A stretch of DNA of 64,000 bases from positions 516,614 to 580,613 of the forward strand of contig NZ_GL892006.1 of the NCBI RefSeq assembly GCF_000213575.1. The letters are read 5' to 3'. The DNA is from Dysgonomonas mossii DSM 22836 (GTDB lineage: Bacteria > Bacteroidota > Bacteroidia > Bacteroidales > Dysgonomonadaceae). Every line of letters begins with the position of its first letter. The first letter of the stretch is position 1. The position numbers and the translations under genes are program-made. Below the pieces are notes generated by a model, which was not told where the DNA came from, ran no database searches, and was given only the letters and a program-made list of their open reading frames with translations. Positions 33,448-60,098 of the stretch are shown piece after piece.

Positions 33448-34047
33448 ATGAATAAAAAGTATATACTTTTCGGACTTATTATTATTTGCAGTATCACTTT
33501 TATGAGTTGTTCTCAAAAAGATGAAAAGCAAATAACGAAAAAGGAAGCCGCCTTATCTGTAATCTATAACAGAAAAAGTGTACGCAGTTTTATCAAAGAC
33601 AGACCTGTTTCGGAAGAAGATATTCAGTCACTCATAAAGGCCGGCATGTCTGCACCTTCGGGAAAAGATACGCGTCCGTGGGAATTTGTGATTATAAATG
33701 ACAGGGCTATATTGGATAAAATGGCAGAAGAACTGCCTACAGCCAAGATGTTATCTCAAGCGCCAATGGCAATTGTTGTTTGTGGAGATACTATCCGTTC
33801 TTCGTACTGGTATCTCGATTGTTCGGCTGCAACAGAAAACATTCTTCTGGCTGCCGAAGCGATGGAGCTGGGGGGCGTGTGGACTGCCGCTTACCCATAT
33901 CGGGACAGAATGGCAACAGTGATAAAGCATACGAATATGCCCGCACAAATTTTACCTTTGGTTGTAATACCAATAGGCTACCCAATGGGAAACCATTCGG
34001 TAAAAGATAAGTATGACGAAAAGAAAATACACATGAATAAGTGGTAG
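33448..34047 (+). CDS. Nitroreductase-family protein with lipoprotein signal
   Basis: A 199-residue flavoprotein-family member. The N-terminus is a lipoprotein signal, with MNKKYILFG, a hydrophobic core and lipobox FMSCS (Cys about 21). The body is a nitroreductase fold: NRKSVRSFIKDRPVSEED near residue 47 and SAPSGKDTRPWEFVI near 70 are the FMN phosphate and ring-binding segments. ENILLAAEAMELGGVW (about 132-147) is the dimer-interface helix and Gly-Gly-x-W loop. Family enzymes reduce nitro, quinone or flavin substrates with NAD(P)H. An exported copy is unexpected because NAD(P)H is cytoplasmic. Confidence 0.85.
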   Translation: MNKKYILFGLIIICSITFMSCSQKDEKQITKKEAALSVIYNRKSVRSFIKDRPVSEEDIQSLIKAGMSAPSGKDTRPWEFVIINDRAILDKMAEELPTAKMLSQAPMAIVVCGDTIRSSYWYLDCSAATENILLAAEAMELGGVWTAAYPYRDRMATVIKHTNMPAQILPLVVIPIGYPMGNHSVKDKYDEKKIHMNKW

Positions 34048-41186: not shown

Positions 41187-43055
41187 TCAAAACAGTTTTA
41201 TTCCTGCCACAAAATAGTTATCACCTGAATCGACAGTCTCTATCGGTTCTAGTTTTATATAACGGGCCTTCTCTGATTTCGTTGCAAACAAAGTAACATC
41301 TTGTTTCACCGGATTGTTAGCTATATTATTAAAAATAGCGTTCTTCTTCACTTGTGTCCAGCTTTTACCATCTAAACTGATATAAAAATTATATCTGAGA
41401 ATATTTGATGATTGTACTTTATTGAAAGGAATATAAGTAAAACCTTTGATTAACTCAGCTTCTCCTAAGTCGATCACCAATGGAGTTTTTTTCTTTACTT
41501 CGAGGAAAGTATTATCATCAGTATCAGTAATTTTTGACAAATCAGCAACAGGCGATACTAATTTCCATTTAGATGTAGAAAGGCTCTTATTATTTTCTTT
41601 ATTTACTCCTTCTGTTGCCGAGAATGATTCAGGAGCATTATATAAACTTACTTTGCTTATTAGCGGACAAGCAAGAGCAGTAAGGCTTATTTTCAGTTTT
41701 TGAGTAGAGATCGTAGGGAAACGCAAAATGCGTTTGTAGCCTATTGTTGTAGCCTCCGTCAAGTCTTTCCAAACTCCGTTATCCCAATATTTCACACTAA
41801 ACGATGCTACTCTTTGCCCCAATGGAATATATTCTTGTAAAGCCAAACGGTTGAAAGTCTTCACTTGTTTCAAATCAATTTCAATAGACGGATTTAATTC
41901 GCTATCGTCTGTAGCCCAATACGTATTATAGTTATCGTCAAGCAGGTTTGCAACAGAATATTGGACAGCGTTGTCTCTCACATTGCTTGCTTTTATTTCA
42001 GCACCTTCAATCAAATCTTTACCAAATGACTCTTCTCTTGCTTTACGAAACTCCATCAAACGAATAGAGTCGTTGGCATGAATACGCCCTGTGCGATCGG
42101 GAGGAACATTCAGCAACAAGTTAGAGTTACGTCCGACTGAAGTATAATATATATCCATCAGTTTATCTACCGACTTTACCTTATCGTCTGTAGACGGACT
42201 ATAAAACCATCCCGGACGAATAGAAACATCCGTTTCGGCAGGAACCCATGCCTCGCCACCTTGCACTCCTGTATTCAAAATATCTACAGACGGTGCACCG
42301 CGTCCCGGTTCATAGCCCTTGATATTGAGTGTAGACCAGTTAGTCTTACCCGCAACACCCTGCTCATTACCCATCCAGCGACAGCCGGGACCTACATCAC
42401 TGAATATTACAGCTTGAGGTTGATTTCTATATACTGTATTGTGAAATAAATTCCAATCATAGACTTGTTTTTTGCCATCTTTTCCTTCTCCGTTTGCGCC
42501 ATCAAACCATTGCTCGAACACTTCTCCGTATCCTGATAGCACTTCGTTTAATGTATTTGCAAAAACCTGATTATATTCAGGAGTTCCATAAGCAGGGTGA
42601 TTCTGATCCCAAGGGGACAAGTATACTCCAAACTTTAAACCATATTCGCGGCAAGCTTCAGAAAGCTCTTTCAACAGGTCACCTTTTCCATCTTTCCAAA
42701 GGCTTTCTCTTACTGTATGCGTACTATATTTACTTGGCCACAAGCAAAAACCATCGTGGTGCTTTGCCGTGATAATAATACCTTTCATACCTGCAGCCTT
42801 GGCTGTAGCTGCCCATTGACGACAGTCCACATTGGTAGGATTAAACACTTTCGGATCTTCCTTTCCATTTCCCCATTCTACATCGGTAAAAGTATTAGGT
42901 CCAAAATGGGTGAACATATAGTATTCCATTTGTTGCCAGTCAACCTGATCTTGCGTTGGTATCGCTCCATAAGCCTTTAGTGGTTGATTCTGGGAATTAG
43001 CAGTTTGATATAAAAATAAAAAAAGGAAAAAGGTTAAACTTAATTTGAATTTCAT
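41187..43055 (-). CDS. Alpha-L-fucosidase, GH29, with F5/8 type C-like modules
   Basis: A 622-residue secreted glycoside hydrolase. Signal peptide is about residues 1-21 (ends ANSQ). The GH29 barrel has the KHHDGFCLWPS block (His 99-100, substrate binding) and EQWFDGANGEG with Asp185 as the expected nucleophile, and YSPSTDDKV and NLLLNVPPDRTG follow. Two discoidin-like carbohydrate-binding modules follow at about 355-475 and 500-622, each ending in a strand with KARYIKLEP or KLKISLTAL. It cleaves terminal alpha-fucose from glycans such as mucin or milk oligosaccharides. No SusCD pair is nearby. Confidence 0.92.
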   Translation of the reverse strand: MKFKLSLTFFLFLFLYQTANSQNQPLKAYGAIPTQDQVDWQQMEYYMFTHFGPNTFTDVEWGNGKEDPKVFNPTNVDCRQWAATAKAAGMKGIIITAKHHDGFCLWPSKYSTHTVRESLWKDGKGDLLKELSEACREYGLKFGVYLSPWDQNHPAYGTPEYNQVFANTLNEVLSGYGEVFEQWFDGANGEGKDGKKQVYDWNLFHNTVYRNQPQAVIFSDVGPGCRWMGNEQGVAGKTNWSTLNIKGYEPGRGAPSVDILNTGVQGGEAWVPAETDVSIRPGWFYSPSTDDKVKSVDKLMDIYYTSVGRNSNLLLNVPPDRTGRIHANDSIRLMEFRKAREESFGKDLIEGAEIKASNVRDNAVQYSVANLLDDNYNTYWATDDSELNPSIEIDLKQVKTFNRLALQEYIPLGQRVASFSVKYWDNGVWKDLTEATTIGYKRILRFPTISTQKLKISLTALACPLISKVSLYNAPESFSATEGVNKENNKSLSTSKWKLVSPVADLSKITDTDDNTFLEVKKKTPLVIDLGEAELIKGFTYIPFNKVQSSNILRYNFYISLDGKSWTQVKKNAIFNNIANNPVKQDVTLFATKSEKARYIKLEPIETVDSGDNYFVAGIKLF

Positions 43056-43782: not shown

Positions 43783-43790
43783 TATTTTTG
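43783..43790 (+). promoter_or_regulatory. -7 promoter box of the apbE-rnfCD unit
   Basis: TATTTTTG matches TAnnTTTG. TTTT at 43759-43762 lies 20 bp upstream. The first gene of the unit starts at 43817. Confidence 0.45.
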
Positions 43791-43816: not shown

Positions 43817-44242
43817 ATGAATAATATTGTCCAGATATTGAAACGAATCGGCCTTTTTTTATTTGGAGTTTTGTTAGTGATTTGGGGCTATAAGGTAAAT
43901 GCCGCCAACGCTGAAGAAAAAGCCAAAGAGGAAAAAGAAAAGAATACAAAAGAAGTTGAACAGCCCATCGTCTTACCTCCTGCTGACGAACCCAAAATCG
44001 AAGAGCAGCCCGTAAAAGAAGAGGTAAAGAGTTTAACTGCTCCGGCTAAAGTATCGTCTGAAAAGAAAAAAACAGAAGATGTCAAGCCGAAAGCTTCCGC
44101 CACACCCCAGACAAAAAAATCAGCAACAGCTGTAGAAAGTAAAAAAGAAAAGGAAATTCAGACGGAAGAAGAAAAGGTAGAGGAAGTCAAGCAAACCGTT
44201 ATAGAAAAAGCAACACCCGAAGAGTCGTCAGGAACAGAGTAA
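43817..44242 (+). CDS. Single-helix membrane protein with Lys/Glu/Pro-rich tail
   Basis: A 141-residue protein. A hydrophobic helix at about 10-29 (LKRIGLFLFGVLLVIWGY) is followed by about 110 residues of low-complexity sequence rich in Lys, Glu, Pro, Thr and Ala. The tail has coiled-coil-like EEKAKEEKEK near the membrane and repeated charged blocks afterwards. Whether the helix is cleaved (VNAANA could be a cleavage site) or is an anchor is undecided. It starts the apbE-rnfC-rnfD unit and is 8 nt before apbE. No TonB or RnfG-like domain is present. Confidence 0.7.
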   Translation: MNNIVQILKRIGLFLFGVLLVIWGYKVNAANAEEKAKEEKEKNTKEVEQPIVLPPADEPKIEEQPVKEEVKSLTAPAKVSSEKKKTEDVKPKASATPQTKKSATAVESKKEKEIQTEEEKVEEVKQTVIEKATPEESSGTE

Positions 44243-44250
44243 CCCTGTAA

Positions 44251-45156
44251 ATGGAATTATTATACAAAGCCCAGACCCGATTCTTATTCCATTCGCATAT
44301 AAAAATCAAGCTATCTGCTTTTTACGAAGAAAGTATATTTGATGAATTATTTGCGGTTCTCGAACATGTGGATAAGAAATACAATTCGTATCAAGCAGGT
44401 TCTTATTTCGACATAATAAATAAGAACAGCGGTAGCTTTGTAGATGTTGATGAGGAAACTGTAAATATATTAAATCAGGCAATTACAATCTCCGATTTCT
44501 TTAATGGGACTTATGATATTACAGTCATGCCACTTATTAGACTCTGGGGATTCTACAAAGATGAGCAACGGCAAATACCCTCAATCAAAGAAATAGAAGA
44601 TATAAAGAAACTGGTTGATTATAGAAGGATAGAGATAGACGGAAAAAAAGTCAGGATAGAAAAAGGACAGGAAATCATTACAGGCTCGTTCATTAAAGCC
44701 TATGCTGTAGATTGTCTGGCTGAAAGAATGCTAAAACTGGGAATAAATGATGCGATAATCAATGCCGGAGGAAGTACGATAATGGCAATAAATAACGAAT
44801 CGCACCCACAATGGCAGGTCATGGTGAGACATCCCCAAACAGAAGAAGTCTTATTTAAGTTAAACATTGCAAATCAGACATATTCGACGTCATCGCAGGC
44901 TAAAACTTTTGTAAATATAGATGGTAAAGAATATGGACATATACTAAATCCTATTACGGGTTTCCCGTCGGCAAACAAGCAGGTGGGAATTGTCAGCGAC
45001 AATTGTATGATCGGCGATATGATCTCTACGGCGCTGTTTAACGAATCGGCGGAAGGGTTCTTAAAAAAGATTGATCTACTATCGGAACATTACAACATAC
45101 AAGGTTTTATGCTCGATAGTGATAATAATATTATATACACTCAAGATTTCAGATAG
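44251..45156 (+). CDS. apbE: FAD:protein FMN transferase (ApbE family) without export signal
   Basis: A 301-residue enzyme of the family that links FMN from FAD to Thr or Ser in target proteins. TYDITVMPLIRLWGF near residue 90 matches the NPTV-type N-terminal block, and TGSFIKAYAVD (about 143-153) the GG-x-KG-x-A-x-D site. NAGGSTIM near 172 is the substrate-binding loop. YGHILNPITGFP near 230 and IGDMISTALF near 254 hold the metal-ligand residues. Unusually, no signal peptide or lipobox is seen and a stop codon precedes the ATG, so no longer start exists. The gene sits 8 nt after the tail protein and 27 nt before rnfC. Confidence 0.87.
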   Translation: MELLYKAQTRFLFHSHIKIKLSAFYEESIFDELFAVLEHVDKKYNSYQAGSYFDIINKNSGSFVDVDEETVNILNQAITISDFFNGTYDITVMPLIRLWGFYKDEQRQIPSIKEIEDIKKLVDYRRIEIDGKKVRIEKGQEIITGSFIKAYAVDCLAERMLKLGINDAIINAGGSTIMAINNESHPQWQVMVRHPQTEEVLFKLNIANQTYSTSSQAKTFVNIDGKEYGHILNPITGFPSANKQVGIVSDNCMIGDMISTALFNESAEGFLKKIDLLSEHYNIQGFMLDSDNNIIYTQDFR

Positions 45157-45183
45157 TTATTTCAAATTAATATAACAAAAGCT

Positions 45184-46476
45184 ATGATAATGCACATACT
45201 TTCGATGAAAGGGAAAACCAAGAAGAAGAGTATTCAGGCTATTGAAGACGCTCCATTTCTATACATTCCCCTCGCTGAATATTTAGGCTGTGCTCCTACT
45301 CCTGTTGTCAATGTTGGCGATAAGGTAAAGAAATATCAATTGATAGGAGAAGCAAAGGATAAGTTTGCGACCAAAGTACATGCGCCTGTATCGGGTGTGA
45401 TTTTGGAAACAAAAGACTATCCTTTTGCAGATGGCTCTTCTGTAAAAACCATCGTTATACAGAACGACTATGAGAACGAAGAAGTAACCGGCATTTCGTA
45501 CAAAGATTACAACCAATGTAGCCCCGAAGAGTTGATAGAGCGAATTAAGGATACAGGCATAGTAGGACAAGGTGGAGCTCAATTTCCGACAGCTATAAAA
45601 TATAGTGTTGGGGAGCATAAGATCCATACCTTTATTGTAAACGGTGCAGAGTGCGAACCTTACCTTACATCAGATTATTCGCTGATGGCAGAGCGTACCG
45701 AAGAGCTATTTAAAGGAATTGATATCATAAAAAAGATACTCAATGCCGACAATGTTATCATTGGTATAGAGCATCAGAATAGAGAACTTCTAAAAGCATT
45801 TGCTCCATATCTGCAACAGAAAGAACATAAGGGCTACAAAGCAATATTATTGCCGGATCAGTACCCTCAAGGTGGCGAGCTGCAATTGATAAAGTCTGCC
45901 ACAGGCATTGAACTACCAAGATCGAAGCGACCAGCCGAAGCGGGAATAATAGTGAGTAATATCGGCACTATCTATTCTGTTTATCAGGCCGTAGTAAATC
46001 ACAAACCTGTTATCAGCCGGATAATAACAATCTCGGTTGAGCGATCTACCAATTATGGCAATTACGAGGTGAAAATAGGAACGCCGATAAGACATATCAC
46101 AAAGTCGCTAGGGATAGAAACTTCGGGTAACACCATCGTACAGGGAGGCCCAATGATGGGAAAGGCAATACAAGACCTGTCGATACCCGTAACCAAAGGA
46201 GCATCGGGAATACTATTTCTAAAGAAAGAAGAAGTAAAACGGAGTAATTGTATTTCGTGTGGTTATTGCGTCGATGTATGTCCCATGCGGCTGATGCCAA
46301 TGAAGTTTGAAGAAAATTACAGAAAGAAGAAATACTTCAATCTTGAAAAATACAACATCAGCAGTTGTATCGAATGTGCAGCATGTGAGTATATCTGCCC
46401 AAGCAATGTACCGCTTATAGAAAGCATAAAAGAAGGAAAAGTAAAACTTAAAGAACTAGCAAATGCAATCAGATAA
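45184..46476 (+). CDS. rnfC: Electron transport complex subunit RnfC
   Basis: A 430-residue NADH-binding subunit of the Rnf type. Features in order: an N-terminal barrel-like segment (about 18-70), the GQGGAQFPTAIK Rossmann-like flavin/NADH region near residue 129, a SLBB-type domain, and two [4Fe-4S] motifs near 355-370 (CISCGYCVDVCP) and near 393-408 (CIECAACEYICP). Canonical RnfC passes electrons from NADH or ferredoxin to RnfD/G. Here the genes for A, B, E and G are absent. Its stop overlaps the rnfD start by 14 nt. Confidence 0.9.
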   Translation: MIMHILSMKGKTKKKSIQAIEDAPFLYIPLAEYLGCAPTPVVNVGDKVKKYQLIGEAKDKFATKVHAPVSGVILETKDYPFADGSSVKTIVIQNDYENEEVTGISYKDYNQCSPEELIERIKDTGIVGQGGAQFPTAIKYSVGEHKIHTFIVNGAECEPYLTSDYSLMAERTEELFKGIDIIKKILNADNVIIGIEHQNRELLKAFAPYLQQKEHKGYKAILLPDQYPQGGELQLIKSATGIELPRSKRPAEAGIIVSNIGTIYSVYQAVVNHKPVISRIITISVERSTNYGNYEVKIGTPIRHITKSLGIETSGNTIVQGGPMMGKAIQDLSIPVTKGASGILFLKKEEVKRSNCISCGYCVDVCPMRLMPMKFEENYRKKKYFNLEKYNISSCIECAACEYICPSNVPLIESIKEGKVKLKELANAIR

Positions 46477-47536
46477 AACAATATTTGCACCCTTTGTCAG
46501 AAAAAGTGACAGTACCAGCCGTGTAATGGCAGATGTTATTTTAGCATTGCTTCCATGTATAGCCATGTCGTATCTGGCATTCGGGTTTGTACCTGTCATG
46601 GTAATCTTGGTGGCAGTAGGAAGCGCGCTATTAACAGAATTCCTGTTCTCTATTATCTTTTCCAAAAACACGGAATCTCTTTCTGATGGGTCAGCCATTA
46701 TTTCGGGAATTCTACTTGCATTCACGATAGCGCCTTTCACCCCTCTCTATGTTGTTGCATTTGGGGGAAGCATGGCCGTTCTGTTCGGAAAACTACTCTG
46801 GGGTGGCTTAGGACGCAATATATTCAATCCTGCGCTCATCGGACGAGAGTTTATGACTGTATTCTTTCCCGCTGTGATGGCTTCACGTACTATTTGGTAC
46901 GACAAGACAGCAGTAAATATAAGTGAGCTCAATATTTTCAACGATAGTTTTATAAACCAACTATTTTATAAAGCATCGGGAGCAATAGGCGAATATTCGA
47001 TATTCTTTTTGGTACTAGGAGGTTTGTTCTTGTTGATTAGGCAAAGAATCTCATGGCATATACCATTTGCCTTATTAGCGGCTTTCACTGTATTGCTTCT
47101 TACCGTGTCTAATCTGACCGAATATACAATACAATTCTCTCTGGGAGGCTTATTGCTGGGTACTATATTTATGGCAACAGACATGCCCACAAGTGCAAGT
47201 ACCAACTATGGTAAGTTATATTATGGAGCAATGATAGGTCTAACAGCAATACTCTGCATCATCAATGATGTGAAGTATGAATACATGTCTTACTCAATAC
47301 TATTGTTGAATGCCTTCGTTGTACCTATCAACTGGGTATTTCGCCCGAATGTATGGGGACAAAAATTAGACATCCTTACCCGCTTGTGGCAAGGTCTGTC
47401 ACTTACGGCATGTATACTAATGGCGACATTCGCTGTTATCTATCTGCATCATACAGGGTTGATAATGTATCTTGTATTTATTTATATTGCTTATTGCATC
47501 ATAAGGTTCATAGCGAAGGGAATAAAAGCCGAATAG
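46463..47536 (+). CDS. rnfD: Electron transport complex subunit RnfD
   Basis: A 357-residue membrane protein with about nine to ten transmembrane helices, of the RnfD/NqrB family. The family hallmark is TDMPTSASTNYG, which corresponds to the D-x6-T flavinylation site where the last Thr carries FMN in RnfD and NqrB. GRNIFNPALIGREF near 112 and NPALIGR-type loops also match. The nearby ApbE would be the enzyme that attaches the flavin. It overlaps rnfC by 14 nt and ends before a bidirectional terminator, so the unit finishes here with no further rnf genes. Confidence 0.9.
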   Translation: MQSDKTIFAPFVRKSDSTSRVMADVILALLPCIAMSYLAFGFVPVMVILVAVGSALLTEFLFSIIFSKNTESLSDGSAIISGILLAFTIAPFTPLYVVAFGGSMAVLFGKLLWGGLGRNIFNPALIGREFMTVFFPAVMASRTIWYDKTAVNISELNIFNDSFINQLFYKASGAIGEYSIFFLVLGGLFLLIRQRISWHIPFALLAAFTVLLLTVSNLTEYTIQFSLGGLLLGTIFMATDMPTSASTNYGKLYYGAMIGLTAILCIINDVKYEYMSYSILLLNAFVVPINWVFRPNVWGQKLDILTRLWQGLSLTACILMATFAVIYLHHTGLIMYLVFIYIAYCIIRFIAKGIKAE

Positions 47537-47554: not shown

Positions 47555-47590
47555 CAAAAAAAGAGCAGACCGTCAGATCTGCTCTTTTCT
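47555..47590. terminator. Bidirectional terminator between rnfD and nuoN
   Basis: AAAAGAGCAGA (47559-47569) pairs with TCTGCTCTTTT (47578-47588), an 11-bp perfect stem with an 8-nt loop, A-run on one side and T-run on the other. Confidence 0.85.
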
Positions 47591-47610: not shown

Positions 47611-49002
47611 TTATAAGTTCAGTCCCATAATTACAGAAGGAAAAATTCCAAGTAATAAATTCAAAGATATAGCGATTACAGCTACAGCTTTATATTCGAA
47701 AGGAACTCTTAGAGGCTCTTCCGTTTCGCTTTCTTTGGTAATCATTATATTTGCTACTCCCAGATAATAGAACACTGCTATAATCGAATTTATAATACCG
47801 AATATAACAAGAACTAAGTGTCCTGATTGTAACATCTGATCAAACACAAAGAACTTAGCAAAGAAACCTGCAAAAACAGGAATTCCACTTAATGACAACA
47901 ATGCACAAATAAAGATTGCGGTCAACACCGGCTGACGTTTTACCAAGCCAAAGAAGTTTGTCATATCCTCATTGTCTTTTCCCCGGCAAACACCAAGTAT
48001 TACAGCAAATGCAGCAATCCCCGCCAAGCTATATGCTGCGGCATAATACAATACGGTATTTGCTGATGTACCTATTGCAAGCAAGGTCATCATCATAAAT
48101 CCGGCGTGCGATATACCCGAATAGGCCATCATACGCTTTATGTTTTTCTGCTTCATTGCAGTTACGTTTCCGACTGTCATTGTCAGTATAGACAATACAA
48201 TCAGTACAATCTGATATACAGGTGTTACCGCAACAGACAATATTGTTATTACCTTAAACAATGCTCCTATTGCAGCCACCTTCACCAAGGTGCTCATGAG
48301 AGCAGTAGAAAGTGTAGGTGAGCCTTCGTAAACATCAGGCGCCCAAAAGTGGAACGGTACGATAGATGCTTTAAACATCAAACCGACAGTCAACATCACA
48401 AAGCCAAGACTAAACCATATAGGTAAAGATCCTCCCTGAGCAGTAGATGCAATAGCAACTGTAGCTATATCGAATGAACCAAATGCACCATATATGAGAG
48501 CAATACCGAACAGAATAAAGCTGGATGCAAATGCACCCATGATGAAATACTTCATACCGGCTTCGTTACTTCGCAAGTTCTTCGGATCGCTGGCTGCCAA
48601 GACATAAGCGGCAATAGACAATACCTCGAGCCCCACGAAAAACATAATGAAGTTTCCGAAAGAGACCATAGCCACAGCTCCGGCCACAAGAAAGACCTTG
48701 AGGGCTACATAGTCGGCAATCTTATCTATTCTGTCTTGATAAAACTTGGGACTCATCACAAGAATCAGTACAGCAAGAATAATAAACAGGATAGAGAATC
48801 CTTGCGAAAATCCTGTTGATACCAACATATTGTACTTATCCGTACCAAGGAAAGATTGTCCTAAGTAAAACTCGGTAACAGTCAACCCCAATACAGCAAT
48901 CAGTCCGATAAGTGTAACTGGTATAAGGATTTTTCTCAAATTGAATATCTCTAATAAAAGGCAGATTATACCTAATGCTGAGATGGCTATCAATGTACTC
49001 AT
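47611..49002 (-). CDS. nuoN: NADH-quinone oxidoreductase subunit N
   Basis: A 463-residue antiporter-like membrane subunit of complex I with about 13-14 helices. The MrpD-type blocks are visible: a LEVLSIAAYVLAASD segment near 120 with the conserved Glu, FKASIVPFHFWAPDVYEGSPT near 210 with a helix-borne Lys, and MAYSGISHAGFMMM near 290. It is the last gene of the nuoA-N operon and ends at a terminator shared with rnfD. It would move one proton per cycle. Confidence 0.92.
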   Translation of the reverse strand: MSTLIAISALGIICLLLEIFNLRKILIPVTLIGLIAVLGLTVTEFYLGQSFLGTDKYNMLVSTGFSQGFSILFIILAVLILVMSPKFYQDRIDKIADYVALKVFLVAGAVAMVSFGNFIMFFVGLEVLSIAAYVLAASDPKNLRSNEAGMKYFIMGAFASSFILFGIALIYGAFGSFDIATVAIASTAQGGSLPIWFSLGFVMLTVGLMFKASIVPFHFWAPDVYEGSPTLSTALMSTLVKVAAIGALFKVITILSVAVTPVYQIVLIVLSILTMTVGNVTAMKQKNIKRMMAYSGISHAGFMMMTLLAIGTSANTVLYYAAAYSLAGIAAFAVILGVCRGKDNEDMTNFFGLVKRQPVLTAIFICALLSLSGIPVFAGFFAKFFVFDQMLQSGHLVLVIFGIINSIIAVFYYLGVANIMITKESETEEPLRVPFEYKAVAVIAISLNLLLGIFPSVIMGLNL

Positions 49003-49019
49003 TATATATCTGGCTATTT

Positions 49020-50453
49020 TTATCTGTTAATATACATTACTATCTCTGTCAGGCTTGTAGACACCAAGTCTGTAACCGGCTTCACATACACCCCGAAAAA
49101 TATAAGTACTCCTATTATTAAGGCGAAAACTACCGTTTCGGTCTTCGATAAATCCCTAAACGGATTCACTGACGGTTCTCCTAACATCACCTGCTGATAC
49201 ATTCTCAACATGAACAGAGCGCCAAGGAACAATGCTGTTCCTATTGTAAGGGCGTACCAAAGATTTACTTGATACAATCCGAACATTATTGTAAACTCTC
49301 CGATAAAGTTAAACGTAAGCGGTATACCGATAGAAGAAAGGATGCTTATAAAGAACGCCACCGCAAACTTTGGAGCATGTTCTTTAATACCACCCATCTT
49401 ACTTATAGTCAATGTATGCATACGTGTTTGGATTACATCTGCGGAATAGAACATACCCACAATACCAAAACCATGAGCCAGGATAAGTATTACAGCTCCT
49501 TCGAGGCCATCGTATGTCAACGCATAAGAGCCAGCCGCAATAAATCCTACGTGAGACAATGATGCATACGCTAAGAATCTTTTCAAGTCATCTTGACGCA
49601 GCGCCATTATAGCTCCGTATACAACTCCAATGATACACAGAATCACAATTACTGTTCTAAACTCGTTTGAAGCGTAAGGAGTTATCGGCAACTGCCAACG
49701 AATAACGCTATATGCTCCCATCTTAGACATGATACCCGCCAGTAACATAGTACCTATTGCCGGTGCTTTCTGATACACATTTGCCTGCCATGTATGGAAA
49801 GGGAAAATCGGTATCTTAATCGCATAAGCAAGGAAGAATGCCAAGAATATCCAGATTTGTTCTGTTTGGCTCAGACTCGCATTATAGAATGCTTCGAGCT
49901 GAAAGCTTCCCGTTTTTGTATACATGTATATAATAGCGGCAAGCATAAACAATGATCCGGCAAATGTAAAGAGGAAGAATGTCATCGCCGCCTTACGTCT
50001 TTTGACGATCTCGCCGTTACCCCACAGTACGATGATGAAATAGATGGGGATAAGAGACATTTCCCAAAACACATAATACAAAAGGGCGTTACTGCTTAAG
50101 AATGCACCTACCATAGCAAAAACCATAAACATGACTAAGCTATACAGCATCTTTTCATTCTTAAATTCGCGCGATTGCGTACCCAGTATAATTATAGGCA
50201 GCAGTATCGTCGTCATTAATATCATAGCCATCGACAAGCCGTCGGCCTTTAACGAAAACGAGATATTAGGCTTACTAATCCAGTCTATGCTGAAATTTGC
50301 TCCTGCTGCTCCGTATTTAAGACATAATGCTACCGAAAAAATAGCTGCGGCAACACCAAACAGCATAGCTACTTTAGAGGCAAATCTATTTCCTGATAAA
50401 TAAGTAAGAATTGCACCTACCAATAATATGATTAATATAATAGTGATATTCAT
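49020..50453 (-). CDS. nuoM: NADH-quinone oxidoreductase subunit M
   Basis: A 477-residue antiporter-like complex I subunit. Characteristic stretches are LLYYVFWEMSLIPIYFII near 123 (conserved Glu), KIPIFPFHTWQANVYQKAPA near 215 (Lys and His), and KRFLAYASLSHVGF near 290. It has about 13-14 helices. It lies between nuoL and nuoN in the expected order, 17 nt from nuoN, and length agrees with E. coli NuoM (~509) given a shorter tail. Confidence 0.92.
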   Translation of the reverse strand: MNITIILIILLVGAILTYLSGNRFASKVAMLFGVAAAIFSVALCLKYGAAGANFSIDWISKPNISFSLKADGLSMAMILMTTILLPIIILGTQSREFKNEKMLYSLVMFMVFAMVGAFLSSNALLYYVFWEMSLIPIYFIIVLWGNGEIVKRRKAAMTFFLFTFAGSLFMLAAIIYMYTKTGSFQLEAFYNASLSQTEQIWIFLAFFLAYAIKIPIFPFHTWQANVYQKAPAIGTMLLAGIMSKMGAYSVIRWQLPITPYASNEFRTVIVILCIIGVVYGAIMALRQDDLKRFLAYASLSHVGFIAAGSYALTYDGLEGAVILILAHGFGIVGMFYSADVIQTRMHTLTISKMGGIKEHAPKFAVAFFISILSSIGIPLTFNFIGEFTIMFGLYQVNLWYALTIGTALFLGALFMLRMYQQVMLGEPSVNPFRDLSKTETVVFALIIGVLIFFGVYVKPVTDLVSTSLTEIVMYINR

Positions 50454-50469
50454 GTTTCTTTTTTAATTT

Positions 50470-52344
50470 TTATACAAGAAATAAACAGATGATTAGTGCA
50501 CTGAATCCCAATACAAAGAAAAACAGATAAAAACCAAGACTTCCATTCTGTAGTCTTCGCGCCGGAACTGTCAACAACTCGACCAAGCCTCCGAAGCTTT
50601 TCAGTATATTTTTTAATGCTTTCTCTACTACACGTTCAAAGAAGCCGGCTAAAGCATAAAGAGGTTTTACAAACAATGCATTGTATATTTCATCAATGTA
50701 ATATTTGTTGTAAGACACTTTAGCAAGTCCCGAAATCTCATCATCCTCAGCAGGAACTTCAGATTTCTTTATATATTTAAAGTATGCCAGCGCAATACCA
50801 ACGATAGCGATTATAGTAGAAATTACCATTGTCAACACCATCTGGTCTACAGGAGCATGCTCGCCTGTTATACCCGGTAATATTGGCTCTAGGTAAGCGT
50901 TCAACCAGCTAAGTCCTCCGAAAGGAATACTGATAAGCCCTCCGAAAAATGCTAAGAAAGCCAGCACGATAAGCGGCAGAGTCATACTACTTGGCGATTC
51001 GTGCAAATGATGTTTCTGTTCTTCTGTACCTCTAAACTCTTTGAAGAATGTAAGATATAGCAAACGGAACATATAGAATGCAGTAAGCAAAGATGCTAAT
51101 GCTGCTAAAATCCATAAGAAGATATTATGCTCGAAAGCAGTCAGCATGATTTCATCTTTGGAGAAGAAACCTGCCAAAGGCGGAATACCTGCAATTGATA
51201 ACGTAGAGATCAAGAACGTATAATACGTCGTCTTCATCTTATTCTTAAGGCCTCCCATCTTGCGCATATCCTGTTCGCCTCCCATAGCATGGATAACTGA
51301 ACCTGAACCAAGGAATAAGCAAGCCTTAAAGAATGCATGTGTGATCACATGGAATACTGCCACGTGATAAGCACCCAGCCCAAGAGCCAAGAACATAAGC
51401 CCGAGCTGCGATACGGTAGAGTATGCAAGTACTTTCTTTATATCATTTTGTGTAAGAGCTATCGTTGCAGCAAATAATGCTGTTACAGCACCTACAATAG
51501 CAATCAAAGTCTGAATATCGGGAGTGAGATCGAAAACAAAGTTCAATCGAGTCACCATAAATATACCCGCTGTAACCATCGTTGCAGCATGTATCAGTGC
51601 CGATACAGGAGTAGGACCTGCCATCGCATCGGGCAACCAAGTATATAACGGGATCTGTGCACTTTTACCTGTAGCTCCGATAAACAATGCCAATGTAGCA
51701 ACGCCCAATAATGGGTCGGGACTGGTAACAAGATCTTTTAACGAAACGTAGTCCACCGTTTTGAACATATATCCCAGTGTAAAGATACCGATAAGGAAGC
51801 CTAAGTCTCCGATACGGTTCATCACAAAGGCTTTCTTTGCCGCATCGTTGTTCTTGTGATTTCTCGACCAAAAACCAATAAGCAGATAAGAACACAAACC
51901 TACACCTTCCCAGCCGATAAACATAACGAGAAGGTTACTTCCCGAAACAAGTATCGTCATAAAGAAGATAAATAGATTCAGATATGAAAAATAACGGTCT
52001 ATATTTTCATCATCGTGCATATACCCCATCGAGTAGATATGTATCAGCGTACCTATACCTGTCACAAACAGTAACCATACTAGAGACAGTTGGTCGAGCG
52101 TGAAAGACAGATCGGTGGTAAACTCGCCTAAGGCAATCCATTGAAACAGGTTGACATTGAAAACCTGACCTGTAGAAAGATTCTGGATGAAAAGGTAAAG
52201 AGATATTACAAAACTTAAAGCTACTGCTACGGTAGCAATAATTCCCGGTAATGTACGCCCCGTTAGTTTTTTACCAACCAGCAAATTAATTGAGAAACCG
52301 ATAAACGGACTAAGCAAGAGTATTAATACTAATATTGTTTCCAT
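50470..52344 (-). CDS. nuoL: NADH-quinone oxidoreductase subunit L
   Basis: A 624-residue complex I subunit with about 16 helices and the long C-terminal lateral helix expected of NuoL. FIGWEGVGLCSYLLIGFW near 143 holds the conserved Glu. IPLYTWLPDAMAGPTPVSALIHAATM near 213-238 is the proton-channel block with the Lys/His residues. VLAYSTVSQLGLMF follows near 310. Length is near that of E. coli NuoL (613). It is 6 nt after nuoK. Confidence 0.95.
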   Translation of the reverse strand: METILVLILLLSPFIGFSINLLVGKKLTGRTLPGIIATVAVALSFVISLYLFIQNLSTGQVFNVNLFQWIALGEFTTDLSFTLDQLSLVWLLFVTGIGTLIHIYSMGYMHDDENIDRYFSYLNLFIFFMTILVSGSNLLVMFIGWEGVGLCSYLLIGFWSRNHKNNDAAKKAFVMNRIGDLGFLIGIFTLGYMFKTVDYVSLKDLVTSPDPLLGVATLALFIGATGKSAQIPLYTWLPDAMAGPTPVSALIHAATMVTAGIFMVTRLNFVFDLTPDIQTLIAIVGAVTALFAATIALTQNDIKKVLAYSTVSQLGLMFLALGLGAYHVAVFHVITHAFFKACLFLGSGSVIHAMGGEQDMRKMGGLKNKMKTTYYTFLISTLSIAGIPPLAGFFSKDEIMLTAFEHNIFLWILAALASLLTAFYMFRLLYLTFFKEFRGTEEQKHHLHESPSSMTLPLIVLAFLAFFGGLISIPFGGLSWLNAYLEPILPGITGEHAPVDQMVLTMVISTIIAIVGIALAYFKYIKKSEVPAEDDEISGLAKVSYNKYYIDEIYNALFVKPLYALAGFFERVVEKALKNILKSFGGLVELLTVPARRLQNGSLGFYLFFFVLGFSALIICLFLV

Positions 52345-52350
52345 CCAAAT

Positions 52351-52674
52351 TTATCCTTTTAAGTTTTTCAATTCATCAATATCTATCGTGCCTATGTTTC
52401 TGTAGATGGCAACCAAAATAGCCAACCCTACAGCCACCTCAGCCGCAGCTACGGCCAATGAGAATATCACAAACATTTGTCCGCTGGTATCCTGATGATA
52501 CACAGAAAAAACAGCCAACAACATATTGGCGGCAGCCAGCATCAATTCTACCGACATCAACATCACAATCGTACTCCTACGATACAATATTCCAATTGCA
52601 CCTACACAAAACAAGAGTATGCAGAGGTAAATGTAATTGTCAATTCCTACTTGTTCTAATATATTATTCAGCAT
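52351..52674 (-). CDS. nuoK: NADH-quinone oxidoreductase subunit K
   Basis: A 107-residue subunit with three transmembrane helices. The second helix has VMLMSVELMLAAANML with the conserved Glu of the proton half-channel, and a second Glu lies in helix three (AAAEVAVGLAI). Length is normal (~100). It follows nuoJ by 3 nt. Confidence 0.92.
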   Translation of the reverse strand: MLNNILEQVGIDNYIYLCILLFCVGAIGILYRRSTIVMLMSVELMLAAANMLLAVFSVYHQDTSGQMFVIFSLAVAAAEVAVGLAILVAIYRNIGTIDIDELKNLKG

Positions 52675-52677
52675 AGC

Positions 52678-53181
52678 TTAAGCTTTTTTCTCTTTTTTAG
52701 AAATAAGTACTGCCCCGATCATGGCCGTTATAAGCAATATAGCAGCAAATTCAAATGGCACTAAATACTCGTCAAGCAGCACCTGACCAATAATATTTAC
52801 CGACTGATAGTCTAACCCCTCGGCTTTGTATGTTTCTATCACAGGCGTAGCCTTCAGAAGCGCAGCCAACAGGACAATTCCCATCAAGCAGCTCGATATT
52901 GTAGCCGCCACACGACTGATCACTTTTTTCTTTGGCTCGTGGCTTTCACTCAGGTTCATAAGCATCAGAGTAAATAGCAATAATACCATGATAGCTCCGG
53001 CATAAACCACAATATTTATAACCGATAGAAACAAAGCATTCAGCAGCAAAAAGTGCCCCGATATGGAGAAAAAACAGATAATCATATACACTGCACTATG
53101 AATGGGATTCTTAGACAATACCGTCAGAAGTCCCGTACCGAGTGTTATGGTTGCCAGAATATAAAAAATTATTGTAATCAT
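52678..53181 (-). CDS. nuoJ: NADH-quinone oxidoreductase subunit J
   Basis: A 167-residue subunit with five hydrophobic helices. The family pattern LKNPIHSAVYMII-like is near residue 24 and VYAGAIMVLLLFTLML near 60. After helix three a polar loop (ESHEPKKKV) is followed by two more helices. It sits between nuoI and nuoK. Length matches other NuoJ proteins (~165-185). Confidence 0.9.
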   Translation of the reverse strand: MITIIFYILATITLGTGLLTVLSKNPIHSAVYMIICFFSISGHFLLLNALFLSVINIVVYAGAIMVLLLFTLMLMNLSESHEPKKKVISRVAATISSCLMGIVLLAALLKATPVIETYKAEGLDYQSVNIIGQVLLDEYLVPFEFAAILLITAMIGAVLISKKEKKA

Positions 53182-53206
53182 ATCATTATTTATCTCGTAT
53201 CTCTAT

Positions 53207-53740
53207 TTAATCATATTTGCGTGCTTTGGCATCCTCTACCGAAATCACGAGTTTATCTTTACCATAGATAAAGTCTTCACGTTCTAATTTCGGCTTCACC
53301 AGAAGCTTAGACTTGGTTAAGAAAATAGCTTCTTTCGGACAAGCCTCTTCGCATATTCCACAAAATATACAGCGTAGCATATTTATTTCATATTCCGAAG
53401 CATATTTTTCTTCACGGTACAGATGTTCTTCTCCTTTTTTACGCTCAGCAGCCACCATCGTGATTGCTTCTGCCGGACAAGACAAGGCACACAACCCGCA
53501 TGCCGTACAGCGTTCGCGTCCCTGATCGTCACGCATCAATACATGCTGACCACGATATACAGGGCTGAATTCGCGTTGTTGCTCAGGATACTGAACAGTC
53601 GCCTTCTTCTTGAAAAAGTGCTTAATTGTAATTATAAGCCCTTTTATCACAGCAGGAAAGTATATCTTCTCTGCGAAGGTCATGTTTTTATCAACAACCT
53701 CCGTCTTTCTTCCTGATAATGATATTTTTTCTATTGACAT
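53207..53740 (-). CDS. nuoI: NADH-quinone oxidoreductase subunit I
   Basis: A 177-residue peripheral subunit carrying clusters N6a and N6b. Two [4Fe-4S] motifs are visible, CTACGLCALSCPAEAI near residue 82 and CIFCGICEEACPKEAI near 127. The N-terminal ~45 residues hold an amphipathic helix that anchors it to the membrane domain. It lies 16 nt after nuoH. Confidence 0.93.
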   Translation of the reverse strand: MSIEKISLSGRKTEVVDKNMTFAEKIYFPAVIKGLIITIKHFFKKKATVQYPEQQREFSPVYRGQHVLMRDDQGRERCTACGLCALSCPAEAITMVAAERKKGEEHLYREEKYASEYEINMLRCIFCGICEEACPKEAIFLTKSKLLVKPKLEREDFIYGKDKLVISVEDAKARKYD

Positions 53741-53756
53741 CGCTAATTTCTTATTT

Positions 53757-54800
53757 TCATTTAAAAATCAGGACAAAAATTCCTACCAAGATGATATTTA
53801 CTATCGCCAACGGAAACAGCATCTTCCATCCCAGTTTCATCAGTTGGTCGTATCTGAATCTCGGTATTGTCCAGCGCACCCACATATAGAAGAAAATGAA
53901 GAATGAGGTTTTGGCTAAAAGTGATAGCACTCCCAGTAGACCAGCTATATTTACACCCCAGTTTTCTGTTACCCAATCTATTCCCGGATAATTGTATCCT
54001 CCAAAGAAAAGAACAGAGATAAATGCAGATGAGAAAAACATGCTCGCATATTCGGAGAACATATAGAATCCCATACCCAACGATGAATATTCGACATGGT
54101 GTCCGTTAACCAGCTCCGACTCACATTCTGCAAGGTCGAACGGTGTACGGTTACATTCTGCAAACGAACAAACAAGGAAAATAATAAAGGTCAATGGCTG
54201 ATAAATCACATTCCATTGCATACCATGCCAGCCACTTTGCTGCTGAGTGATTTCTACCAGACTCAAAGAACCTGTCATCATAATCAGCGCAATAAGAGAA
54301 AGCCCCATTGCTATTTCATACGAAATCATCTGTGCTCCGGCACGGATACTTCCCATCAGGGAATATTTATTATTTGATGCCCATCCTCCGATTACAACAC
54401 CATATACGCTTGTAGATAATACAGCTACAATATATAGAATAGCCACATTTACATCTCCGATGTAAGGTTTAACCTCTCCATAGCCTGCTATAACAAATTT
54501 CTCTGCCCACGGGATCAACGCCCCCCCAAGCAAAGAGACTGTCATAGCAACAGCCGGACCTACAACAAAGAGAATCTTATTCGGCGTATTTGGCATGAGG
54601 TCTTCTTTGGCAAACAACTTTGCTCCATCGCAAAGAGGCTGTAGCAAACCAAAGATACCTGCACGGTTCGGGCCGAGACGATCTTGTAAAAAACCGGCTA
54701 CCTTACGTTCTGCATAAGTAGAATACAACGCAAAAAGCATTGTGACAGCAAACACAAGAACGATAAGGATCAACTTTTCTAAAATAAGTGCAATCTCCAT
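53757..54800 (-). CDS. nuoH: NADH-quinone oxidoreductase subunit H
   Basis: A 347-residue membrane subunit with about eight helices that, with NuoB and NuoD, forms the quinone chamber. ERKVAGFLQDRLGPNRAG (about 31-48) and QPLCDGAKLFAKED are the most conserved N-terminal loops. ECNRTPFDLAECESELVNG near 220 carries the Glu residues needed for coupling. MWVRWTIPRFRYDQLMKLGWK near the C-terminus completes the match. It is 8 nt downstream of nuoG. Confidence 0.94.
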   Translation of the reverse strand: MEIALILEKLILIVLVFAVTMLFALYSTYAERKVAGFLQDRLGPNRAGIFGLLQPLCDGAKLFAKEDLMPNTPNKILFVVGPAVAMTVSLLGGALIPWAEKFVIAGYGEVKPYIGDVNVAILYIVAVLSTSVYGVVIGGWASNNKYSLMGSIRAGAQMISYEIAMGLSLIALIMMTGSLSLVEITQQQSGWHGMQWNVIYQPLTFIIFLVCSFAECNRTPFDLAECESELVNGHHVEYSSLGMGFYMFSEYASMFFSSAFISVLFFGGYNYPGIDWVTENWGVNIAGLLGVLSLLAKTSFFIFFYMWVRWTIPRFRYDQLMKLGWKMLFPLAIVNIILVGIFVLIFK

Positions 54801-54808
54801 TATTTTAT

Positions 54809-55852
54809 TTATTCTTTTGTTTTCTTTATAGCTTCCAACTCCTCTGCATCATAAGGAGAACCAGGCATGCTTATTTTCTTCTGATCTTCTTTACGACCTT
54901 CCAATACAAGTTCGTCTGTATTTATCTTTACTTTATGTATCGGCTCTGTATAGTTGTTTACATTGATTACAGATGGCTTCTCAAATTTGCGAGGGCCTTC
55001 TATAGTCCAGTCTTCAACATTCTTATGTTCGAAACGACACTCGTTACAGATAAATTCTTCAACTTCGTGCCATTCGTCTTTGCGGGCTGTCACACGTTGA
55101 ACTTTGTCGCCAAACATCCATAGCACTACTTTCCCCGAACATTTAGTACAATGACGATGTGCATTAAACGGTTTGTTGAACCAAACACGAGACTTGAATC
55201 GGAATGTTTTATCGGTAAGAGCTCCTACAGGACAAACATCGATCACATTACCCGAGAAATCGTTATCGATCGCACGTTCTATATATGTGGAAATCTGAGC
55301 ATGATCTCCCCTTCCCACTACTCCATGAACACGTTCAGGCGTTAATTGATCAGCCAGTTTTACACAACGGTAGCAAAGAATACAACGATTCATGTGCAAC
55401 TGTATGTATGGTCCTATATTTTCGGGTTCGAATGTTCTTTTTTCTTCTATATAACGCGACTTGAAGTTATTATTACCATAAGCAAGGTTCTGCAAATCGC
55501 ACTCTCCCGCCTGATCGCATACCGGACAGTCGAGAGGATGGTTGATCAACAAAAATTCGGTTACAGCCTTTCGTGCCTCCAGAGCTCTTTCGGATGTAGC
55601 GCTTTTCACTTCCATACCGTCCTGAACAGCTGTTACGCATGACGGCTGAAGCTTAGGCATAGGACGAGGGTCTCTTTCGCTACCTTTGTTTACCTCCACC
55701 AAGCAACAACGACATTTGCCGCCGCAGTCTTCCAGCTTAGAGTAATAGCACATTGTAGGAGGAACACTGGCTCCGCCTATCATACGTGCCGCCTGCAACA
55801 CTGTGGTTCCAGGTTCGACGTCTAAAACATGTCCATCTATTGTAATTTTCAT
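54809..55852 (-). CDS. nuoG: NADH-quinone oxidoreductase subunit G, short form
   Basis: A 347-residue iron-sulfur subunit against ~780-910 in E. coli or Thermus, because the molybdopterin-oxidoreductase-like part is missing. The N-terminal [2Fe-2S] domain has CYYSKLEDCGGKCRCCLVEV (about 35-54). HPLDCPVCDQAGEC near 104 binds cluster N5 through His and Cys, and CILCYRCV near 155 with CPVGAL near 208 binds N4. A C-terminal four-Cys pattern (CTKC near 236 and CNEC near 270) may bind a further cluster or metal. Short NuoG proteins of this kind are common in Bacteroidota; the gene is complete and in frame. Confidence 0.9.
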   Translation of the reverse strand: MKITIDGHVLDVEPGTTVLQAARMIGGASVPPTMCYYSKLEDCGGKCRCCLVEVNKGSERDPRPMPKLQPSCVTAVQDGMEVKSATSERALEARKAVTEFLLINHPLDCPVCDQAGECDLQNLAYGNNNFKSRYIEEKRTFEPENIGPYIQLHMNRCILCYRCVKLADQLTPERVHGVVGRGDHAQISTYIERAIDNDFSGNVIDVCPVGALTDKTFRFKSRVWFNKPFNAHRHCTKCSGKVVLWMFGDKVQRVTARKDEWHEVEEFICNECRFEHKNVEDWTIEGPRKFEKPSVINVNNYTEPIHKVKINTDELVLEGRKEDQKKISMPGSPYDAEELEAIKKTKE

Positions 55853-55858
55853 ATTGCT

Positions 55859-57214
55859 TTACTTCAAAAGGTGACGAACTTTTTCCATAGGCTCGTCTAC
55901 AAAATGATCTCTATTTTTTATCTTTTCAGGGAAGCGTACATGGTATTCGAACTCTTCGCGGAAATGGCGTATTGCTGCTGCAACCGGCCATGATGCCGCA
56001 TCACCGAGAGGACAAATCGTATTGCCTTCAATCTTACTTTGTATGCTCCATAGCAGGTCGATGTCTTCTTCTCTACCCTGTCCTGTTTCGATGCGATGAA
56101 GTATTTTATCCATCCATCCTGTACCTTCACGACACGGAGAACATTGCCCACAGCTTTCGTGATGGAAGAAACGAGAAAAATTCCATGTATTACGAACGAT
56201 ACATGCTGTATCATTGTACACGATGAAACCTCCCGATCCGAGAGAAGAGCCGGTTACGAAACCACCGTCAGCCAGTGATTCATAGCTGATCAAACGATCT
56301 TCACCATTTGCTGTTTTAAATATATATTGAGGAGGTAAGATCGGAACCGAACACCCGCCGGGTATTACAGCCTTTAGCGGACGATCGTCTAGCATACCAC
56401 CGCAATATTCGTCTGAATTGAAAAATTCATCGACAGTCAAACCTAATTCTATTTCATACACACCGGGATTCTTAATATGACCCGAAGCTGACATCAGCTT
56501 GGTTCCTGTAGATTTTCCTACACCAATTTTAGCATATTCAGCACCGCCATTGTTTATAATCCACGAAACAGTAGAAATAGACTCCACATTGTTCACCACT
56601 GTAGGCTCACCCCACAACCCGCTAACAGCAGGGAATGGCGGTTTGATACGCGGATTACCACGCTTACCTTCGAGTGATTCTATCAGGGCTGTTTCTTCTC
56701 CGCAAATATATGCTCCTGCTCCGCAATGTACATACAAGTCGAGATTATAGCCTGTACCCAATATATTTTTGCCCAGCCAACCATTGGCATAAGCTTCCTT
56801 TATTGCTTTTTCTAATATCTTGAATATCCACATATATTCGCCGCGGATATAGATATATGATAAATTAGCTTCTAATGCGTAACTGGAAACAATAGCACCT
56901 TCGATTAGCAAATGCGGAATATGATGCATCAAGAAGCGGTCTTTGAATGTACCGGGTTCCGATTCATCGGCATTTACAACCAAGTGGCGAGGCTTGCCGG
57001 ACTTCTTATCGATAAAGCTCCACTTGAGCCCCATCGGGAAACCTGCACCTCCACGGCCTCTTACCCCTGAGGTCTTCACTTCTTCTACAACCTCATCGGG
57101 GGTCATAGTTTTCAGCGCTTTCTCCACAGACGCATATCCGCCATTCTTGCGATAAACTTCGTATTCCGCTATTCCCGGAATATCTAATTTCTCTAATAAT
57201 ATTTTTCTAGCCAT
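55859..57214 (-). CDS. nuoF: NADH-quinone oxidoreductase subunit F
   Basis: A 451-residue subunit that binds NADH and FMN and carries cluster N3. GRGGAGFPMGLKWSF (about 53-67) is the FMN/NADH loop, and VNADESEPGTFKDR near 80 and GAYICGEETALIESLEGKRG near 166 are family blocks. The Cys motif ESCGQCSPCREGT near 342, with a later Cys near 385, binds N3. It follows nuoE by 5 nt. The presence of F, with E and G, means this complex should use NADH directly. Confidence 0.95.
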   Translation of the reverse strand: MARKILLEKLDIPGIAEYEVYRKNGGYASVEKALKTMTPDEVVEEVKTSGVRGRGGAGFPMGLKWSFIDKKSGKPRHLVVNADESEPGTFKDRFLMHHIPHLLIEGAIVSSYALEANLSYIYIRGEYMWIFKILEKAIKEAYANGWLGKNILGTGYNLDLYVHCGAGAYICGEETALIESLEGKRGNPRIKPPFPAVSGLWGEPTVVNNVESISTVSWIINNGGAEYAKIGVGKSTGTKLMSASGHIKNPGVYEIELGLTVDEFFNSDEYCGGMLDDRPLKAVIPGGCSVPILPPQYIFKTANGEDRLISYESLADGGFVTGSSLGSGGFIVYNDTACIVRNTWNFSRFFHHESCGQCSPCREGTGWMDKILHRIETGQGREEDIDLLWSIQSKIEGNTICPLGDAASWPVAAAIRHFREEFEYHVRFPEKIKNRDHFVDEPMEKVRHLLK

Positions 57215-57219
57215 CGCAA

Positions 57220-57750: not shown

Positions 57751-57752
57751 GA

Positions 57753-58988: not shown

Positions 58989-59000
58989 TTCCTTACTTTG

Positions 59001-60085: not shown

Positions 60086-60098
60086 ACTTGTAAAATTT

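Follow-up and report, generated by a model that had tools for sequence, protein, structure and literature searches.

In the Rnf complex (RnfABCDGE), the limb that serves nicotinamide adenine dinucleotide (NAD) has a cofactor path running from riboflavin through 4Fe-4S clusters and flavin mononucleotide (FMN) to NAD (PMC12174285, PMC9588780; here and below, statements on published work follow the accessible parts of the cited papers). In RnfD of Clostridium tetanomorphum, FMN is bound to Thr153 in an extracellular five-helix linker, with its ring near Arg130, Glu185, Gly237 and Ser284; Asp248, a residue of the riboflavin/Na+ site, and Asn124 lie at the riboflavin (PMC9588780). The Nqr/Rnf-like two-subunit complexes have an NqrB/RnfD-like subunit without the flavinylated Thr, and one-way electron transfer from NAD(P)H to the outside has been proposed for them (PMC8238504, PMC11334425). 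Here, we describe a four-gene module encoding a small tailed membrane protein (g1), ApbE, RnfC and an RnfD-like subunit at positions 43817-47536 of a 64-kb window (the whole stretch of DNA analysed) from Dysgonomonas mossii DSM 22836. We consider it probable, with some reserve, that this module is the NAD limb of Rnf operating alone, as a one-way transmembrane conduit from NADH through RnfC and the RnfD-like subunit to periplasmic flavoenzymes, with the g1 tail as the likely flavin carrier.

All four open reading frames (ORFs) lie on the forward strand, as an earlier note on this DNA had proposed from the letters alone, and the last three have Pfam/NCBIfam matches. The g1 product (43817..44242, +; 141 aa) has an N-terminal transmembrane helix, a Lys/Glu/Pro-rich tail and the C-terminal sequence EESSGTE; no Pfam or NCBIfam family matched it above cut-off. 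It is followed by an ApbE-type flavin adenine dinucleotide (FAD):protein FMN transferase (44251..45156, +; 301 aa; PF02424, 181 bits). RnfC (45184..46476, +; 430 aa; TIGR01945, 441 bits against a cut-off of 246) contains a NuoF-like FMN/NADH domain and C..C..C...C motifs at residues 356 and 395, so both [4Fe-4S] motifs attributed to it earlier are indeed there; the two motifs were found in 43 of 43 full-length RnfC sequences (42 module loci and locus L100). The RnfD-like subunit (46463..47536, +; 357 aa; PF03116, 250 bits) falls short of the cut-off of TIGR01946, the RnfD model (194 against 207 bits). Pfam finds only PF03116 in this protein, with no fused NqrF-like PF00175 domain.

In comparison with the Rnf complex of C. 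tetanomorphum (7ZC6), the RnfC match reached 297 bits and the RnfD fold was recovered with a Foldseek probability of 1.00 at 32% identity; the same cofactor path would be expected from the homologous RnfC and RnfD. In contrast to Rnf, the module has no matches to RnfA, B, E or G, its RnfD-like subunit lacks the covalent FMN site and carries two additional helices, and its operon adds g1 and an ApbE without apparent signal peptide. The Na+-translocating NADH:quinone oxidoreductase (Na+-NQR) shares a homologous subunit, NqrB, but matches to NqrC, D and E are missing from the genome, and RnfC, with FMN and iron-sulfur clusters, differs from the cofactor-free NqrA. The two-subunit complexes resemble the module in the absence of the flavinylated Thr and in the outward one-way transfer proposed for them; as described in the accessible text, however, they combine a fused NqrF-like PF00175 NAD domain with a flavinylated NqrC/RnfG-like partner, whereas the module has a separate RnfC, no FMN_bind protein that we could find, and the new g1.

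The claim that RnfA, B, E and G are missing was upheld at the level of the whole D. mossii genome (3.95 Mb, 99.99% complete, 28 contigs). PF02508 (RnfA/E and NqrD/E), PF04205 (FMN_bind; RnfG/NqrC) and PF04060 (the only mark used for RnfB) each gave 0 matches, and PF03116 is present as a single copy. NqrC, D and E were likewise without matches in this genome, in a search that had no separate models for NqrA and NqrF. As controls, each absent-subunit model matched 4 or 5 of 14 control genomes (PF04060: 5 of 14). A canonical complex split between two loci, which the earlier note had set against its own proposal, was rejected, as no A, B, E or G match exists elsewhere in the genome. The same note's description of a reduced flavin-linked membrane redox module agrees with the lack of a separate RnfABEG set and with the wide occurrence of the gene order (see below). 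Divergent RnfD proteins were found in 20 of 101 genomes of the family, in five genera, at 240-260 bits to PF03116, compared with ~390 bits for canonical RnfD and 345 bits for NqrB; a partial match of similar score (G085, profile positions 1-203) was excluded from this count as a truncated canonical RnfD. PF02508 had no match in 17 of these 20 module genomes, and FMN_bind had none in the same 17 (two of the 20 are only 55% and 62% complete). The remaining three, from genus g3, hold PF02508, FMN_bind and an NqrB. The lack of a known ApbE substrate refers to FMN_bind, among known substrate domains that also include DUF2271 and DUF3570.

One assignment of the earlier note did not survive: TDMPTSAST of the RnfD-like subunit (residues 239-247; codons 47177..47203, +) is not the Thr flavinylation motif. 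In the alignment with C. tetanomorphum RnfD, this segment is paired with TDYATSPIT, the segment of Asp248, and is the riboflavin/Na+-site motif of Asp240. Counted along the pairwise alignment, the position of the known Thr153 is taken by Val151, within the lost flavinylation site at residues 149-153 (codons 46907..46921, +). The linker motif D-x-x-[ST]-x-A-[ST] was present in none of 60 RnfD-like rows (51 distinct), compared with 30 of 30 canonical RnfD sequences of the same family. The residues around the FMN ring have equivalents in Arg128, Glu177, Gly229 and Ser276, and those at the riboflavin in Asp240 and Asn122. Among 42 aligned RnfD-like sequences, Arg128, Gly229, Ser276, Asn122 and Asp240 were found in all and Glu177 in 41. 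The scan patterns FMATDMP and GREFM[TA][VI]F contain Asp240 and Arg128, so the invariance of these two residues in L053-L099 is partly imposed; all six residues are also invariant in 19 family sequences found by Pfam, without a motif search. Judged by these alignments, the RnfD-like subunit has lost the covalent FMN anchor and kept the FMN pocket. With the motif lost, RnfD is expected to be negative for ultraviolet fluorescence, and the candidate fluorescent band would be g1.

The predicted structure of the RnfD-like subunit has a mean predicted local distance difference test (pLDDT) value of 85, and all 15 Foldseek matches with E up to 0.001 were RnfD and NqrB chains. Predicted structure and sequence comparison also delimit a C-terminal extension (47372..47533, +) with two added transmembrane helices, predicted at residues 304-330 and 334-356. 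The C-terminal part comprises 70-86 residues in the RnfD-like proteins of the family versus 15-21 in the five canonical RnfD compared.

The neighbourhood analysis suggested in the earlier note demonstrated that the gene order recurs. Of 51 distinct loci, which belong to Bacteroidota, Fusobacteriota and Pseudomonadota, 45 have apbE, rnfC and rnfD side by side (L053 and L061, with a short or split rnfC frame, are counted among them); the non-contiguous loci are L075, L081 (identical to L050), L091, L092, L097 and L099. The 51 loci consist of 47 from a pattern scan of named genomes (41 of them contiguous) together with the window, L037, L043 and L048. The scan itself returned 48 loci, namely 47 RnfD-like, 16 of which repeat family loci, and the canonical-like L100. 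The 19 fetched relatives from the family keep the apbE-rnfC-rnfD order, with the exception of L050, in which rnfC was not found; L038 and L042 have a split or short rnfC. In these relatives g1 lies upstream of apbE (L047 read via L065), with a broken frame in L036. Carriers include Dysgonomonas, Parabacteroides, Prevotella cerevisiae, Flavobacterium, Myroides, Zunongwangia, Pontibacter, Oxalobacter formigenes and Leptotrichiaceae. In the maximum-likelihood tree, 51 RnfD-like sequences fall on one side of a 100/100 branch, opposite 10 canonical RnfD; L100 has a long branch and an unsure placement. Within the genus, RnfD-like proteins are 76-98% identical to the window protein. The spread is patchy: in an order-wide sample, a search with E up to 1e-60 matched 108 of 393 genomes, of which 4 exceeded 490 bits (module type) and the rest were at or below 232 bits (canonical-like), where weaker module members may hide. 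L050 (7157-9209) has the arrangement g1-apbE-rnfD, and its RnfD carries TDMPTCAKT and lies on a long branch.

The small protein g1 was characterized by hydropathy and position. Its transmembrane peak spans residues 4-22, and basic residues precede this single N-terminal helix; by the positive-inside rule, the tail would lie outside. The gene is beside apbE in 39 of the 42 pattern-scan loci that have apbE (35 by script and 4 by eye). The script missed seven: g1 is visible by eye in L065, L069, L070 and L095, is split by a frame change in L055, and begins too near apbE in L079; L093 is considered below. The tail is variable and unalignable, yet usually ends in E-x-[AS]-x-x-[ST]-x. In all 35 g1 found by script, Glu at position -7, Ala/Ser at -5 and Ser/Thr at -2 are invariant, and Ser/Thr is found at -4 in 31. 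Mean ungapped identity was 0.40 over the last 12 residues versus 0.10-0.11 between positions -48 and -24. In two Leptotrichia the g1-apbE pair sits apart from rnfC-rnfD. The g1 of L. hongkongensis (L158:2406-2966) contains EKA[ST]xS three times, and its tail may perhaps carry several flavins. In a Leptotrichiaceae metagenome-assembled genome (MAG; L070:3875-4544), apbE is preceded by two g1-like genes in tandem.

Neither apbE nor g1 was found in the stretch searched around rnfC-rnfD in L091 and L092. In both, rnfD is followed by a gene for a protein with a hydrophobic N-terminus, the sequence DAISGAS and a PNPOx-like domain (just below the Pfam cut-offs in L092). DAISGAS exactly matches the known ApbE consensus D-x-x-[ST]-G-A-[ST], and seven-residue tags are best modified by ApbE when they stand at a protein terminus (PMC12052999). 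In the Neptunitalea genome to which L092 belongs, there is also an ApbE whose N-terminus looks signal-like (L144). The source of L091 is an 8.0-Mb MAG nearly identical to Neptunitalea, which suggests a mixed bin. The linkage of g1 to apbE, its conserved C-terminus, the absence of both from the stretch searched in L091 and L092, where a consensus-tagged protein follows rnfD, and the preference of ApbE for terminal tags together make the g1 tail the leading candidate and likely ApbE substrate, which would take the place of RnfG, though with a motif other than the known one.

The ApbE of the module has no apparent signal peptide, and an in-frame TAA stands just 5' of the window ATG. Signal peptides, lipoprotein sites and membrane orientation were judged throughout by eye and hydropathy, here from 42 N-termini. 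Across module loci, ApbE starts ~3 to 35 residues ahead of the conserved domain. Ser214, His230 and Asp256 align by eye with the Ser-His-Asp triad of FmnB, as this ApbE triad is named in PMC12052999. If the enzyme is cytosolic, it must have access to its substrate from the cytosolic side or ahead of export. A cytoplasmic ApbE without signal peptide is described from Klebsiella; in contrast to the membrane-anchored g1 and its different motif, the substrate there, a fumarate reductase, is soluble and cytoplasmic and bears the standard motif (PMC12052999). In several of the 18 genomes examined, no ApbE other than the g1-linked one was matched, namely in those of Oxalobacter formigenes, Myroides guanonis, two Leptotrichia and a 1.2-Mb Leptotrichiaceae MAG. 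The second ApbE of D. mossii (L032:1441-2409, 278 bits) has no signal peptide in its ORF either, and the same applies to L149, L152, L160 and L162. One MAG contains an ApbE ORF with a hydrophobic N-terminus and an NAGAT segment, perhaps a g1-ApbE fusion (L157:1303-2382).

A candidate electron acceptor is encoded next to the module in part of the loci. Directly after rnfD, 19 of the 47 pattern-scan module loci have a gene for a lipoprotein-type nitroreductase. The exported nitroreductase set has 21 members by BLAST clustering; the three run against Pfam all matched PF00881, and a Cys follows the hydrophobic N-terminus in 17 by pattern and in 4 by eye. An extracytosolic nitroreductase without NAD(P)H would need an electron conduit. 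In the window, a protein of this type (33448..34047, +; 199 aa; PF00881), a candidate acceptor outside the cytosol for D. mossii, is encoded 10 kb upstream of the module. Relatives of it, with at least 40% identity over nearly the full length, are present in 7 of 20 module genomes and in 3 of 81 others (p = 3.7e-4). The D. mossii genome has 11 nitroreductase matches at 8 loci; three ORFs were inspected, and other exported ones may exist. For Dysgonomonas, the link between nitroreductase and module is only suggestive.

According to the mechanism that we propose, NADH would reduce the FMN of RnfC, and electrons would pass from there via the two [4Fe-4S] clusters to the riboflavin of the RnfD-like subunit, and then to an FMN site in the outer leaflet of the membrane. 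Since the pocket has been kept and the covalent Thr lost, the outer FMN would be either non-covalent or, more likely, supplied by the flexible g1 tail, flavinylated by the co-encoded ApbE. The tethered FMN would hand electrons to periplasmic flavoenzymes that are unable to reach NADH; in Flavobacteriia-type operons the acceptor would be the nitroreductase encoded next. This path is the known second limb of Rnf read backwards, and run outwards it would form a one-way conduit. Without RnfABEG there would be no ferredoxin input and probably no ion pumping by the Rnf mechanism. An FMN-carrying g1 would be the most economical replacement for RnfG.

The details of g1 function are more tentative, and here our doubt slightly exceeds our confidence. 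The protein may be a new kind of flavin carrier, a disordered membrane-anchored tether with a Ser/Thr, in most cases the last residue but one, to which a dedicated cytosolic ApbE reading the new motif E-x-[AS]-x-x-[ST] would transfer FMN. The tail would be threaded out, dock in the vacated FMN pocket of RnfD, replace RnfG and serve periplasmic lipoprotein flavoenzymes. A cytosolic ApbE would imply either that FMN is attached to the tail before export or that the tail stays inside. Small adducts can pass SecYEG.

Several observations weigh against the conduit with a flavin-bearing g1. The ApbE of the module looks cytosolic, in conflict with the outside position of the g1 tail given by the positive-inside rule, and the g1 motif differs from the known ApbE consensus. 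The motif is internal in L095, and the g1 of Leptotrichia 879 (L156) has only EKAAAS near residue 40 and none at its C-terminus; no g1 was found in L093. A hydrophobic stretch is present at the N-terminus of L157, the sole ApbE matched in the L075 genome. The parts of the module are separable: L091 and L092 are without apbE and g1, no rnfC was found in L050 (= L081), and in L075 rnfD stands alone in the stretch. In Dysgonomonas, no nitroreductase adjoins the module, and within the genus its relatives occur in 5 of 10 module genomes versus 3 of 19 others (p = 0.083). The topology conflict and the deviating or displaced motif would be accommodated by the same conduit with an unflavinylated g1, whose tail would act as an assembly or docking peptide for the RnfD-like subunit or an envelope protein; the outer FMN would then be non-covalent, and ApbE would modify another protein. 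Docking is a common function of short, conserved C-terminal peptides. We regard this alternative as rather unlikely, although it deserves attention: g1 and ApbE are neighbours in nearly all loci (39/42) and remain paired in Leptotrichia even where rnfCD is elsewhere, FMN_bind is without a match in 17 of 20 module genomes, and O. formigenes, M. guanonis and the two Leptotrichia have no matched ApbE other than the one linked to g1.

Other explanations depart further from an outward conduit. NqrB passes electrons from riboflavin to quinone (PMC12174285), and the RnfD-like subunit has two new transmembrane helices of no assigned role; the complex could accordingly be an NADH:menaquinone oxidoreductase, with the extra helices as quinone site and with g1 and ApbE as maturation factors. 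This is improbable, since the quinone site of NqrB needs two N-terminal amphipathic helices (PMC12174285), for which the short N-terminus of the RnfD-like subunit has no room. Moreover, the genome already has a nuo operon with NuoE-, F- and G-like genes (identified by eye), RnfC keeps its FMN/NADH domain and iron-sulfur motifs, unlike NqrA, and ApbE, g1 and the nitroreductase are left unaccounted for. The RnfD-like subunit could itself be flavinylated by a cytosolic ApbE at the TDMP[ST]SA[ST] loop, on the face opposite to the known site. By homology this loop is on the cytosolic, riboflavin side, where ApbE also appears to be, and TDM-x-[ST]-x-A-[ST] fits 23 of 60 RnfD-like rows. The other 37 do not fit, many Flavobacteriia rows having Pro and Asn or Thr; the T-D-x-x-[ST] core is common to Rnf/Nqr subunits whose FMN is elsewhere, and Asp240 of the loop is a riboflavin-site residue, all of which makes modification at this position very improbable. 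The missing subunits, the loci L050/L081 without a detected rnfC and the short or split rnfC of L053 and L061 might be taken as signs of a decaying canonical operon. We give this reading next to no credence and rule it out, given the separate RnfD-like clade on its 100/100 branch, the same gene order across phyla and the iron-sulfur motifs conserved in every full-length RnfC; RnfD-like proteins also remain highly identical within the genus.

The proposed conduit shares with ApbE-linked extracytosolic electron transfer systems the presence of a cytosolic donor module, a transmembrane carrier and apbE in one cluster. A stand-alone ApbE-RnfC-RnfD module was not found described in a literature search by titles and abstract openings, which largely did not cover subscription papers. 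The 2021 survey retained a cluster only if a signal peptide or lipidation site was present in one of its four target genes (PMC8238504), a filter that could explain why the module was missed.

The flanks of the module were also inspected. A TAnnTTTG-like putative promoter box is present at 43783..43790 (+), 26 bases 5' of the g1 start codon, where the earlier note had the unit open at a -7 box; the box was identified by inspection and is unscored, and TAnnTTTG is presumably the Bacteroidota -7 promoter motif, the promoter scan of the window having covered sigma-70 type sites only. A terminator-like hairpin at 47559..47588 (+) starts 22 bases past the rnfD stop, where a terminator had been placed before; it is a consensus match only, and the pattern is weak alone (4 sites in the window versus 2.7 ± 1.6 in shuffled sequence). 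The hairpin lies between the module and the convergent nuo operon (47611-60467, -), arranged tail-to-tail with it. Complex I was rejected as a module partner, as this operon has its own NuoE-, F- and G-like genes and position is the sole link. In L039, L042, L043 and L049 as well, nuo genes may lie close to the module, judging from weak ferredoxin matches to the RnfC query. On the other side, an alpha-L-fucosidase-like protein with an F5/8 type C domain (41187-43055, -) adjoins the module, with no sign of a link. Elsewhere, a PepSY-type membrane protein, named by eye, is encoded upstream of g1 in L061, L062, L064 and L067, three of which also have a TonB-receptor-like gene near g1 (by eye), a possible iron-uptake neighbourhood. 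In two Flavobacteriaceae, an aldo/keto reductase with a Tat-like signal is encoded directly upstream of the module (L073:4314-5432 and L080:4261-5379; Pfam run for L080 only).

If the proposed reading is correct, Rnf would consist of two separable limbs, and its NAD limb alone would power extracytosolic chemistry in Bacteroidota, Oxalobacter and Leptotrichiaceae. For genomes in which a search for FMN_bind proteins gave none, g1 would offer an ApbE substrate, and the module may provide a route to flavin on an exported protein without periplasmic FAD.

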